Shown: positions 6,879-10,720 of the stretch, piece by piece | Numbering within the stretch: the stretch's first letter is position 1 | How the letters are laid out: every line of letters begins with the position of its first letter | Program-made: the position numbers and the translations under genes | The notes under the pieces: model-generated | Told to the model about the DNA's origin: nothing | The model's database searches: none | The model's input: the letters and a program-made list of their open reading frames with translations, nothing else | Assembly: GCA_002292265.1 (NCBI GenBank) | Contig: DBBQ01000064.1 | Location: 1-10,720 of the forward strand | Source: Flavobacteriaceae bacterium UBA980 | GTDB lineage: Bacteria > Bacteroidota > Bacteroidia > Flavobacteriales > Flavobacteriaceae | DNA: 10,720 bases | Reading direction: 5' to 3'

Positions 6879-7856
6879 ATGAACTACGCACACTCGATTC
6901 TTGAAACCATAGGGAATACCCCTTTGGTTAAGTTGAACAAGATTACCGAAGAAGTTGATGCTTTGGTTTTAGCAAAAGTTGAAAGTTTTAATCCAGGAAA
7001 TTCGGTCAAAGACCGTATGGCTGTTAAAATGATTGAAGATGCCGAAAAAGACGGACGTTTAAAGTCCGGCGGAACTATAGTAGAAGGAACCTCAGGAAAT
7101 ACTGGGATGGGTTTGGCTTTGGCAGCCATTGTAAAAGGGTACAAGCTCATTTGTGTTTCTACGGACAAGCAGTCTAAAGAAAAGTTTGATGTTTTACGCG
7201 CCGTAGGTGCGGAAGTGGTGGTTTGTCCCACTGATGTGGCTCCTGACGACCCGCGTTCATACTACAGCACCTCCAAACGGATTGCAAAGGAAACACCAAA
7301 TAGTTGGTACGTAAATCAGTATGACAATCCTTCCAACACGCAAGCGCATTATGAAACAACCGGACCTGAGATTTGGGAACAAACAGAGGGGAAAATCACT
7401 CATTTTGTAGTAGGGGTTGGGACAGGAGGTACCATTTCTGGTGTAGGAAAATTCCTTAAAGAGAAAAATCCAAATATCAAAATTTGGGGTATTGATACCT
7501 ATGGTTCTGTTTTTAAAAAATACCACGAAAAAGGGGTCTTTGATCCCAATGAAATTTATCCCTATTCAACAGAAGGAATAGGGGAGGATATCCTTCCAGC
7601 AAATGTTGATTTTTCTGTGATTGATCACTTTGAAAAGGTAACGGATAAAGATGCTGCGGTTTTTACCAGAAAACTCGCCAAGTCAGAGGGGGTTTTTGCA
7701 GGAAACTCGTGCGGAGCAGCAATTAAGGGCGTTTTGCAGTTAAAAAATCACTTTAAAAAAGATGATATTGTAGTTGTGTTATTGCATGATTCTGGAAGTA
7801 GATACATTGGCAAAATTTATAATGACGAGTGGATGAAAAAGATGAATTTTCTTTAA
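6879..7856 (+). CDS. PLP-dependent cystathionine beta-synthase-like / cysteine synthase family enzyme
   Basis: A fold-type II PLP enzyme of 325 aa without the C-terminal CBS regulatory domain. Lys44 in NPGNSVKDR is the Schiff-base lysine, TSGNTG (71-76) is the substrate loop, and GTGGT (181-185) grips the PLP phosphate. EGIGED (232-237), AGNSCGAA (274-281, Ser277 near the pyridine nitrogen) and the ending DSGSRYIGKIYNDEWM complete the set. The EGIGxDxxP block and the DSxxxYxxKxxxDxWMxxxxFL ending match cystathionine beta-synthases (serine plus homocysteine) better than classic CysK O-acetylserine sulfhydrylases. The family is often annotated simply as cysteine synthase. Which thiol it uses cannot be fixed from sequence. 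It lies 43 bp after the permease, but its own -7 box and a palindrome suggest separate regulation. Confidence 0.9.
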   Translation: MNYAHSILETIGNTPLVKLNKITEEVDALVLAKVESFNPGNSVKDRMAVKMIEDAEKDGRLKSGGTIVEGTSGNTGMGLALAAIVKGYKLICVSTDKQSKEKFDVLRAVGAEVVVCPTDVAPDDPRSYYSTSKRIAKETPNSWYVNQYDNPSNTQAHYETTGPEIWEQTEGKITHFVVGVGTGGTISGVGKFLKEKNPNIKIWGIDTYGSVFKKYHEKGVFDPNEIYPYSTEGIGEDILPANVDFSVIDHFEKVTDKDAAVFTRKLAKSEGVFAGNSCGAAIKGVLQLKNHFKKDDIVVVLLHDSGSRYIGKIYNDEWMKKMNFL

Positions 7857-8005: not shown

Positions 8006-10720
8006 TTGAAGAAAGCACTTCTTTTTTTATTTTTTCTTCCGCTTTATCTTTTTTCACAGGATATAGAGGTATCAAACGTGCTAATTGTAGGCGGAGAGCC
8101 TCTGTGTCCTGACGATTCTGTTTCTTTTGATATAACTTTTACTAATAAAACAGCAGCACCTGAGGTTATTGATAATAGATTGATAAATGTTTTTGTAAAT
8201 GGACCTAACCCTACTCCTCTATTTTCACCACAAATTGATCCTGCGGTAGCCGCTGTACCAGGTTCTGGTGCATTAACAATAAGATATCCTGATGATTTTG
8301 TGGGAGCACCAGCTGCAATTGATTTCTCTGTTCCAGGTATTTATTCACTAACAGTTAGCTTAACTGTTCCAGGAGATACTGATCCTTCTAATGATGTATT
8401 TAATCTTTTAGATATCGATGTTTACACTCCAGCTATACCCTCATTAGAAAGTTATGTTTCAGGTATAGCAACAAGTACGCTTTGTCAGGGAGAATCAATT
8501 GCATTTGAAATTTCACCAAACTCTGCAACTGCCACCTATACATTTCTTGTCAACGGCGATGTAAAACAAACTGCTTACGGGAATAATACATTCACCTCTT
8601 CAACAATTGGTGCAAATGCGATAGCTGATGGTGATGTTATTACAATTCAAATGATTGACTCGAATGGTTGTATTACTGATGCTAGTTCTGAATCAATTAC
8701 GGTTTCTGTAAATAATCCTCCAATTACCACCATGACCTCCACTGCACCTGAGGGGTATTTTTGCGATGGGGAGTTAATAACATTCACAGCAACAGGAGGA
8801 CCATCATATCAGTGGCTAATTAATGGTACGCCACAATCTGGAGCAACATTATCTTCTTTTACAACTGCACTTAATGATGGAGATACAGTAAAAATAATTG
8901 TAACTAATGCAAGTGGATGTTCAGATGAACAAGAAATCACATTTCAAAAACTTGAAGTAACAGATGATGGAACAATTGCACTTAATGATCCACTTGATAG
9001 TGATATCTGTGATGGTGAAGACCCGGGTTTGATTGGTGGAGATGGAATTATTGCAGGAACAGCAACAGCAACTGTTTCAGATGGATCTCCAGAGTATCAA
9101 TGGCAAAATTCACCAGACGGAACTACTTGGAGTGATATAGATGGTGCAGTAAATGAAAATTATGATCCTCCTGCTCTTTCTGCAACAACTTATTACAGAA
9201 GAAATGTATTAGTTTCTCCAGGGACCAAAGAATGTGAAGTAGATGGTACAGATGTTGTTGTAATAAATGTGAGACCAGAATTTACAATAGGATTAACAAC
9301 AACAGACCCATTAAATACATTTTGCCAAGGGGAAACAATTACTGTTTCGGCAAATACAGGAGCAGCTACATACACATTTTTTGTGAACGGGGTGTCCCAA
9401 CAAAGTAGTTCGTCAGAACAATATATAATTGAAACTGGTGGAACTAGAAATTTAGGTGCTTCACCTGATATTTTGGAAAATGGAGATAATATTACAGTTG
9501 AGGTAATTGATAATTTTGGTTGTGTTAACTCAGAAACAATTGTTCTAGTGGTTGATGAAGTTGGACTTAATCCAACCTTATCTACTGATGTTCCTGGAAA
9601 TATTATTTGTGTTGGAGAGTCTGTAGTTGTAACTGCAACAGGTGGAACTTCTTACACATTCTATATAAATAATACGGGTAATCTTGCTTTACCAGGAGAA
9701 GTTGTTGCAAATGTGTTTACAACAACGAGATTAACTGATGGAGATACAGTAATTGCTAGAGTGTCTAATGCCTCTGGTTGCTATATTGATGTAACTGAAA
9801 CTTTTGAGGTACTCACATTGACTGATCCTGGAGATATCAGATTTTCTGTTGTTGGGAATTCAAATATTTGCTATAGTGATTCAATTTCAGTTCTGAACGG
9901 AGATGGGGCTGCTCCAGCAGATACATCTACAGTTGCAACAGGTTCAGATGTAATAGGATATCAATGGCAATCATCAACTGATGGTTCTAATTGGGGTGAC
10001 ATTGATGGTGAGACATCTGCTGACTATGATGATGGCGCTACAGTTTATACAACAACCACAAGTTTTAGAAGAATAGCTTTTACCTGGATAGATACCGATC
10101 TCGATGGTGTGTTTGATGAAGACATTTCGTGCGGCAATATATCTTCAAATATATTAACTGTTAATGTGGGAGCTGACTTTGATCCTAATCTGGAAACAGG
10201 AGTTACTAATAATTTGTTTTGTGCAGGTGATACTATAAACATTACTGCGGCTGCTGGTGCTACCAATTATACTTTCACCTGGGACGGTAATACAGTTGGT
10301 CCCTCTGCAAATAGAGTATTATCAAGAACTGCCACAGATACAGCAGGTCAAATAGACGATGGAGATATAGTAACTGTAACCGCTACGATTGGTGGATGTA
10401 CATATACAGATGATATCGTAATAGGAGTTGATTTTTTTGGCACGACTCCTTTTGCTTCTCTTTCTAGCAACGCACCTAATGATGTCATATGTTCAGGTGA
10501 AAGCATAACATTTACATCAGGTCCTTTAGGATACAGTAATTATGAGTTCTTAATCAATGGTTTTCAAGAACAAGACGGTATAAATCATATTTTAACAACA
10601 ACAAATATTACTTCAACATCTACGGTAACCATTATTATTACAAATGCAGCAGGTTGTACTGATGAAGAAGAAATAGTAATAACAGTTCCAGACAGCACAA
10701 CACCAGGGAGTATAGAGGTA
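8006..10720 (+). CDS. Giant secreted multi-module (Ig/PKD-like) surface protein, 3' end outside window
   Basis: An open frame of 905 codons with no stop to the window end. In-frame stops at 7988-7993 leave TTG at 8006 as the only plausible start. It gives a signal peptide MKKALLFLFFLPLYLFSQ, cleaved about residue 17-18. An N-terminal beta-rich region (about 19-150) comes first. Eight modules follow, each framed by an opening Cys in a C-x-G-[ED]-type motif and a closing Cys, usually in GC. Cys pairs are 160/222, 253/305, 335/410, 440/506, 535/592, 622/709, 739/798 and 829/884. Most A-type modules share [FW]-x-[IV]-N-G after the core, DGD near the end and a [DN]-x-x-GC close. B-type modules carry YQWQ-S-x-DG-x-x-W-x-DIDG and [YF]-RR. 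Such proteins in Bacteroidota are usually type IX secretion cargo, adhesins or gliding-associated proteins; that is inference, as no C-terminal sorting domain is visible. Codons are richer in A-ending triplets (ACA, GCA, GGA) than in the genes before 7856. Confidence 0.9.
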   Translation, partial: MKKALLFLFFLPLYLFSQDIEVSNVLIVGGEPLCPDDSVSFDITFTNKTAAPEVIDNRLINVFVNGPNPTPLFSPQIDPAVAAVPGSGALTIRYPDDFVGAPAAIDFSVPGIYSLTVSLTVPGDTDPSNDVFNLLDIDVYTPAIPSLESYVSGIATSTLCQGESIAFEISPNSATATYTFLVNGDVKQTAYGNNTFTSSTIGANAIADGDVITIQMIDSNGCITDASSESITVSVNNPPITTMTSTAPEGYFCDGELITFTATGGPSYQWLINGTPQSGATLSSFTTALNDGDTVKIIVTNASGCSDEQEITFQKLEVTDDGTIALNDPLDSDICDGEDPGLIGGDGIIAGTATATVSDGSPEYQWQNSPDGTTWSDIDGAVNENYDPPALSATTYYRRNVLVSPGTKECEVDGTDVVVINVRPEFTIGLTTTDPLNTFCQGETITVSANTGAATYTFFVNGVSQQSSSSEQYIIETGGTRNLGASPDILENGDNITVEVIDNFGCVNSETIVLVVDEVGLNPTLSTDVPGNIICVGESVVVTATGGTSYTFYINNTGNLALPGEVVANVFTTTRLTDGDTVIARVSNASGCYIDVTETFEVLTLTDPGDIRFSVVGNSNICYSDSISVLNGDGAAPADTSTVATGSDVIGYQWQSSTDGSNWGDIDGETSADYDDGATVYTTTTSFRRIAFTWIDTDLDGVFDEDISCGNISSNILTVNVGADFDPNLETGVTNNLFCAGDTINITAAAGATNYTFTWDGNTVGPSANRVLSRTATDTAGQIDDGDIVTVTATIGGCTYTDDIVIGVDFFGTTPFASLSSNAPNDVICSGESITFTSGPLGYSNYEFLINGFQEQDGINHILTTTNITSTSTVTIIITNAAGCTDEEEIVITVPDSTTPGSIEV
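8483..10720 (+). repeat. A-A-B module super-repeat within the surface protein
   Basis: Modules opening at Cys160 (A), 253 (A), 335 (B), 440 (A), 535 (A), 622 (B), 739 (A) and 829 (A) repeat as A-A-B with a unit of about 280-300 residues. Intervals between equivalent opening cysteines are 280 and 299 (first A), 282 and 294 (second A), and 287 (B). DNA-level identity is mostly eroded, but a 17-nt exact match survives at 8875-8891 and 9736-9752, in equivalent second-A modules 861 bp apart. Confidence 0.7.

Follow-up and report, generated by a model that had tools for sequence, protein, structure and literature searches.

An ordered three-domain cassette in the stalk of a giant surface protein, probably a type IX-secreted adhesin, of Flavobacteriaceae-like bacteria

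Introduction

Several described systems come close to the giant surface protein analysed here, the N-terminal part of which is encoded at the end of contig DBBQ01000064.1 of Flavobacteriaceae bacterium UBA980 (assembly GCA_002292265.1); this entire contig of 10720 bp (G000:C34) is referred to below as the window. According to passages of PMC12635249 and PMC9143113, type B substrates of the type IX secretion system (T9SS) remain bound to their own PorP/SprF-like carrier, and a passage of PMC12618676 distinguishes substrates that move on the gliding track from static ones, RemA being described there as carrying a type A signal. In Flavobacterium johnsoniae, the C-terminal Cys-x-Cys (CxC) of SprF bonds this carrier to GldK and is needed for gliding (passage of PMC12635249). 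Adjacent domains of large proteins usually share less than 50% identity, which limits misfolding, and variable-length stalks break this rule (passage of PMC8201768); in Periscope Proteins the domain array sets the reach and the N-terminal part is held far out (passages of PMC8201768 and PMC9704523). An ordered super-repeat of immunoglobulin (Ig) folds in a giant chain is also described for the titin A-band (passage of PMC10665226).

A sequence-only reading of the window had proposed that the protein consists of eight Cys-framed modules of two kinds in the order AAB-AAB-AA, that a B module should follow beyond the contig end, and that the array grew by duplication of a three-domain cassette rather than of single domains. 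Our analysis shows that the ordered array is real and supports this interpretation with two refinements, namely A2-B-A1 as the best notation for the copied unit and, in the structural model, an arrangement of the three domains as beads in line. The giant protein belongs with the known T9SS giant adhesins and variable-length stalks, the new element being the three-domain step; a narrow literature search, covering titles and abstract openings, did not find the AAB cassette described.

Results

Module order in the window and its relatives

Hidden Markov models (HMMs), started from the modules of the window and extended by iteration over its relatives, parsed the window as AABAABAA, in agreement with the order read from the sequence, with the first Cys of the eight modules at residues 160, 253, 335, 440, 535, 622, 739 and 829. 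Equivalent cysteines three modules apart are separated by 280, 282, 287, 299 and 294 residues, exactly the range of 280-299 given before, and pairwise module scores within the window clearly distinguish the two kinds (A-A 58-144, B-B 119, A-B -7 to 34). By chance, two B modules in eight slots at period three are one of 28 arrangements, so that the weight rests on the relatives, among which AAB order is exceptionless in the parsed main-clade members; the relatives that carry a name are Flavobacteriaceae, Flavobacteriales or Bacteroidia. The array comprises the following features:

8006..10720, + strand: open reading frame (ORF) for the first 905 residues of the giant surface protein, with a TTG start and the 3' end open at the contig end
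8453..8710, + strand: module A, position 1, cassette 1 (HMM parse)
8729..8947, + strand: module A, position 2, cassette 1 (HMM parse)
8960..8977, + strand: linker TDDGTI (residue 319) preceding B
8978..9274, + strand: module B, cassette 1 (HMM parse)
9290..9553, + strand: module A, position 1, cassette 2 (HMM parse)
9575..9811, + strand: module A, position 2, cassette 2, with the best Ig_7 (PF19081) stretch (HMM parse, Pfam)
9821..9838, + strand: linker TDPGDI (residue 606) preceding B
9839..10171, + strand: module B, cassette 2 (HMM parse)
10187..10429, + strand: module A, position 1, cassette 3 (HMM parse)
10457..10687, + strand: module A, position 2, cassette 3 (HMM parse); the counterpart of this module comes first in the multiplied unit of G001 and G010
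10697..10714, + strand: linker TTPGSI, residues 898-903, last feature before the contig end (translation read); B follows in relatives

As proposed, linkers of the form T-D-x-G-x-I (TDDGTI and TDPGDI) each precede a B module, the Cys of which lies 11 residues further on. The terminal TTPGSIEV had been taken for another such linker, and the closest relative, L040 (JAKMFK010000008.1, from the metagenome-assembled genome Bacteroidia bacterium isolate MOX_bin70; 88% best-segment identity), has an identical TTPGSIEV followed by a B module. In all 14 parsed relatives that extend past the window's end, among them L040, P0007 and the loci of G023 and G007, the next module is B, a count that omits relatives stopping earlier (e.g., P0008-P0012, the G012 locus and the first G028 contig) and includes some that are not independent, since P0004 and G001 look like one assembly and P0006 holds a partial B only. 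The predicted type of the next module was therefore right; its opening Cys, placed at residue 914-916, was not, since in L040 it follows the linker by 19 residues and corresponds to residue 925 in window numbering, about 10 beyond the prediction. In the other relatives the Cys of B lies 8-11 or 18 residues past the linker, at about residue 911-914 or 921.

The triplet as the duplicated unit

Repeats were analysed by module scoring (skipping modules shorter than 60 residues), by an offset scan and by self-BLASTN of the DNA; self-BLASTP of the repeats returned only the trivial self-match, and Tandem Repeats Finder, with a longest period of 500, did not report the cassettes. Both module scores and DNA repeats revealed a preference for the three-module period. 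Neither of the outcomes named beforehand as contrary to the cassette, an A-type or unrelated next module and a self-comparison lacking this preference, was found.

Over cassettes 1-3, same-position A modules outscore different-position A modules in 13 of 13 proteins (108.5 versus 74.5 in the window). In a tree of 72 A modules from 10 of these 13 proteins, one branch (ultrafast bootstrap 93) separates all 37 position-1 modules together with one position-2 module; judged by sequence, the two A positions are thus distinct subtypes, A1 and A2, and this split indicates that they diverged before the cassettes multiplied. Modules of cassettes 1-3 cluster by position across species, and the position-2 modules of cassettes 3 and 4 pair within species in G022, G010 and P0003, a pairing that we read as the mark of recent multiplication or homogenisation. 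A sparser tree with the distant modules of G014 and G021 has no single clean position split; it requires 3 label changes, compared with a mean of 13.1 and a minimum of 7 in 1000 within-cassette swaps.

Tandem DNA repeats of 828-906 bp, each of three modules, are present in five relatives. The repeat of G001 (828 bp) occurs in six copies, copies 2-6 differing pairwise by 0-2 mismatches plus gap columns and copy 1 by 25-27; self-BLASTN detected repeats of 837 bp in G015 (100% over 710 bp), 840 bp in G028 (98.9%), 906 bp in G010 (89.6%) and 849 bp in G014 (90.8%). In G022 and G030 the DNA matches span a 100-N gap and the repeat period is uninformative. At the protein level, the offset scan gave repeats of 283 residues in P0002 and P0007 and of 276 residues in P0004 and P0005. 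Self-BLASTN found no three-module DNA repeat in the window, whose cassettes are to be regarded as old ones. The edges of the DNA repeats fall within a few residues of the A1/A2 junction on both sides in G001 and G010, on the right in G028 and on the left in G014; the exceptions are the 100% block of G015, which begins inside A2, and the right edge of G014, which lies inside B. Growth by duplication of a three-domain cassette is accordingly supported, and the copied unit appears best written as A2-B-A1, with some slack.

Cassette number across genomes

The gene directly upstream of the giant ORF, which we take from its sequence family to be cysK/cysM-like, served as synteny anchor:

6879..7856, + strand: cysK/cysM-like gene directly upstream of the giant ORF

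A cysK-like gene holds the same place in L040, G030, G010, G001, G015, G017, G011, G014, G021 and G023. Behind it, one cassette was counted in G011 and G021 (one AAB, then BB), three in G014, five in G010 and nine in G001, the last counted across two frames of one contig. Two arrays fit the AAB scheme poorly: in G014 a lone B stands ahead of the first AAB, and in G016 about 126 unparsed residues separate the first A from A-B-B-B. The latter was left out of the counts, its A modules being about 126 residues apart and its 4718-base contig having no visible cysK-like gene. Within G014, cassettes 2 and 3 share 96% identity in A1 and 87% in A2, and cassettes 1 and 2 share 84% in A2 and 100% in B, the diverged modules being the first A1 (38-40%) and the third B (62%). 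All its position-1 modules group together (bootstrap 97), as do its position-2 modules (bootstrap 100), a sign that the cassettes multiplied separately in that lineage. In other genera of the same order, 3 of 23 genomes had any match, with AAAAAAA in G039, AAAAA in G056 and too few modules to parse in the third.

Eleven genomes have a match of E 1.6e-107 or better. In nine of them, including the window's own (G000, G007, G012, G015, G017, G022, G023, G028 and G030), the assembly breaks off or is interrupted by Ns within the array or immediately next to it, the break in G012 lying slightly ahead of the array; only G001 and G010 are resolved. Of the other 37 genomes of the genus, 23 had no match to the window's second half, and in these the gene may be absent, diverged (G011 is such a case) or lost from the assembly. 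Frame breaks also occur inside the giant gene on long contigs (L035 2298-18591, minus strand, and the ends of P0002 and P0003); for those in G001, P0002 and P0003, sequencing or assembly errors seem likelier than phase variation. In G011 (L057 4587-7438), another part of the giant gene has an internal repeat of 508 residues with 68% DNA identity.

Predicted structure and structural relatives

The AAB unit was modelled from an alignment of 37 of 38 cassettes, one with an impossible coordinate being left out, and gave a confident, extended model with a predicted local distance difference test (pLDDT) of 92.9 and a predicted template modelling score (pTM) of 0.76. As to whether the triplet packs together as a structural unit, the model shows three beads in line, with no packed globule. 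This model replaced an AABA model from 12 rows that was weak in B (pLDDT 73.6, pTM 0.41).

For the AABA model, Foldseek placed fragments of Aureispira GhpA in the first eight rows, and with the AAB model they fill four of the top five. Among the matches listed, CEACAM6 comes third in Foldseek, phage Hoc has the same Z as GhpA, and the whole AAB unit can be superposed on five fragments of GhpA at 3.5-4.5 A. The GhpA sequence is listed in eight entries with a total of 56 chains, an average of seven in each. A cassette profile matched it with E 1.8e-110 over 29 stretches, a value inflated by the repeats (best single stretch about 1.6e-8), and this profile is permissive, CEACAM chains matching too (E 2.9e-10). 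The GhpA matches of weight are confined to the A-A part and no AAB order was seen in them; the B-type modules match RemA residues 500-609 and 616-699 instead.

The probable remainder of the gene and its secretion context

When the window's genome was searched with the downstream portion of the G030 protein, a second contig, C65, was found; it opens inside a 2533-residue frame that matches with 88% and 70% identity. The intermediate portion of the G030 protein matches only back to C34. G010 encodes the complete protein in a single frame of 5616 codons, with a carrier gene of the same type behind it. On the strength of G010 and G030, C34 and C65 are most likely parts of one gene. The C65 frame exceeds the Pfam cut-offs for SprB repeats (PF13573; 69.8 bits versus a cut-off of 28, two stretches), PKD_4 and CHU_C (29.7 bits versus 27). 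A phmmer search of this frame against solved chains, GhpA included, returned no match at E up to 1; no profile search was made.

The next gene encodes a PorP_SprF protein (C65:7574-8620; PF11751, 60.9 bits versus 22.3); at E up to 0.001 there is no other PF11751 match in this genome, which is about 91% complete. SprA was detected on contig C38 (TIGR04189, over its cut-off), and GldJ and GldK are found in the same genome. The mature part of all six carriers examined is devoid of cysteine: those of G000, G030 and G010 have none at all, in those of G028, G017 and G021 the sole Cys precedes the likely start Met, and no C-terminal Cys-x-Cys is present in the carrier tails.

Several minor features were noted around these genes. 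A second type B signal domain (68.7 bits, over the cut-off) lies at G000:C35:37050-37304 (L055), with only one PorP/SprF gene found. The C65 part (L050 1727-3068) has a second internal repeat of about 219 residues with 72% DNA identity, and G030 has the same period at 79%. In the 5616-codon frame (L034), one B module after the array is seemingly interrupted, by eye, by an inserted domain of about 95 residues (residues about 1770-1915), and similar stretches recur further along the protein. Not far downstream of its adhesin and carrier genes, G021 has a small frame (L059 565-1368, minus strand) that encodes one A module and one B module.

Discussion

Comparison with described systems

The nearest counterpart is SprB/SprF of F. 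johnsoniae, a T9SS type B substrate likewise consisting of a giant chain with SprB repeats, a type B signal and a PorP/SprF gene directly downstream; here the carrier lacks the twin-cysteine tail and the AAB Ig-like array is N-terminal, the likeness being one of domain content and gene order. With Periscope Proteins (SasG, Rib, Sgo_0707) the protein shares near-identical tandem folded domains, a rod-like stalk (here predicted), an N-terminal part away from the cell and a number of domains that varies between genomes (here between species). Near-identical tandem repeats were found in relatives (98.9-100% in G028 and G015), with none visible in the window. The unit here has three domains of three subtypes, whereas in Periscope Proteins it is one domain or a two-part E-G5, and anchoring is by a T9SS carrier rather than by sortase or autotransporter. 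GhpA is alike in its A-type Ig-like stalk domains, both by sequence profile and by superposition of the whole unit; weighty matches are restricted to A-A, AAB order is missing and no similarity was detected for the C65 part. RemA shares the B-type modules, but carries a type A signal, and the AAB array was not seen in the match. The titin A-band, the exact pattern of which we take to be Ig plus Fn3 in longer super-repeats, resembles the array as an ordered Ig-fold super-repeat in a giant chain, by analogy only, titin being eukaryotic and intracellular.

A stalk that would change length in three-domain steps

We consider it likely that the protein is a T9SS-exported, probably static fibrillar adhesin with a stalk whose length changes in three-domain steps. 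The window would encode the distal, N-terminal part of this giant adhesin of a Flavobacteriaceae-like bacterium. The chain would be exported via SprA. At the outer membrane, the PorP/SprF-like barrel from the gene just downstream would retain it by binding its C-terminal type B signal, and the N-terminus would point away from the cell on a rod of Ig-like beads. Since the carrier has no twin-cysteine tail, the adhesin is probably anchored and not driven along the gliding track; with static anchoring, the N-terminus would be the far end, and the number of cassettes probably sets the reach of the protein's tip from the cell. The AAB cassette would then be the unit of stalk growth and shrinkage. 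Some relatives have near-identical tandem A2-B-A1 units, flanked on one side by a conserved N-terminal part and on the other by a last A2-B that has diverged, and recombination between such copies would alter the reach in three-domain steps. We infer that the stalk is a rod in vivo, that recombination causes its changes in length, that the adhesin binds to surfaces and that its anchoring is static.

Such a cassette of three subtypes would bypass the identity rule for adjacent domains: neighbours differ (A1, A2, B), and copies three domains apart can be near-identical and recombine. One locus with 1, 3, 5 and 9 cassettes, together with a second multiplication in a distant species, makes the idea testable. 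A warning also follows for genome surveys, since many genomes of the genus lose the middle of the giant gene in assembly.

Several observations weigh against this reading. The pLDDT and pTM values are no direct proof of fixed angles between domains, and the tool gives no predicted aligned error. The module scores of G011, G021 and G014 are low (A modules 9-29 bits), which makes their counts of one, one and three cassettes softer. Differences in repeat number (1, 3, 5 and 9) are known between species only; with one genome per species compared, length variation at strain level was not seen, and the array is absent from the assembly of the window's own genome. The TIGR04131 C-terminal signal, at 24.6 bits, stays under the NCBIfam cut-off of 35, and a Pfam scan of the window protein detected no domain of known ligand in the head.

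Alternative explanations

Copying of A and B modules one at a time, with the AAB order left by selection or chance, is highly improbable for the array. Single-module growth does occur in the superfamily, as the A-only runs of G039 and G056 and the runs of A-type domains in GhpA indicate, and the trailing B modules past the last AAB may have arisen in this way; in the array, however, position-1 and position-2 A modules are separate lineages, the readable DNA repeats are three modules long in five genomes, and number changes in whole cassettes. That the cassettes are an inert spacer, merely lengthening or shielding while their number drifts neutrally between species, is unlikely: the head has no recognised ligand-binding family in its favour, but from species to species the first modules are conserved at each position, and high identity is confined to the array, as in Periscope Proteins (passage of PMC8201768).

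The SprB repeats, the type B signal, the adjacent PorP/SprF gene and the presence of GldJ and GldK would also suit a counterpart of SprB that its carrier pulls along the gliding track, with the cassettes as spacer. Gliding in F. johnsoniae, however, needs the CxC tail (passage of PMC12635249), and all six carriers lack cysteine in the mature part. Attachment to the track by another route is conceivable; we rate such a mobile adhesin as improbable, on a par with the inert spacer. Side-by-side bundling of chains into a grappling-hook-like cable for the capture of other cells, as in Aureispira GhpA, is very unlikely. The leading Foldseek rows for both models, the five whole-unit superpositions, the profile match and the average of seven GhpA chains per entry speak for it; only the A-type stalk domain is common so far, though, the C65 part has no phmmer match, the B modules resemble RemA, and a common Ig fold says little on assembly, as phage Hoc and CEACAM6 rank beside GhpA. 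A broader proposal, hardly more probable than the cable itself, would make A2-B-A1 a mechanical quantum, that is, a mixed-subtype rod segment with no identical neighbours and with near-identical DNA for recombination, giving reach steps of one triplet in stalks that are anchored by the cysteine-less SprF-type carrier and join into cables for capture, in the manner of the Aureispira grappling hook. A static stalk changing length by triplets stays our preferred explanation.

Further features of the window

Ahead of the first module, the giant ORF comprises two further segments:

8006..8059, + strand: signal-peptide-like hydrophobic N-terminus, residues 1-18 (translation read by eye)
8060..8440, + strand: N-terminal domain ahead of the first module, residues 19-145, one Cys

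The Pfam scan of the window protein placed five stretches of Ig_7 (PF19081, Ig-like domain CHU_C associated) and, for residues 19-145 (8060..8440), no best stretch of any family above cut-off; NCBIfam gave no match of the window protein above a cut-off. The start codon of the giant gene seems to be TTG. In this region, the frame of G030 opens with TTG immediately after TGA, and in L040 an in-frame ATG stands four codons ahead of the equivalent codon, at a place where the window has ATT. Module B of cassette 2 contains a loop of the form D-x-D-x-D-G-x-x-D-E (residues 696-706, 10091-10123), similar in its motif to a calcium-binding loop, and akin loops occur at the same place in the aligned relatives (12 of 13 proteins used, P0006 being left out).

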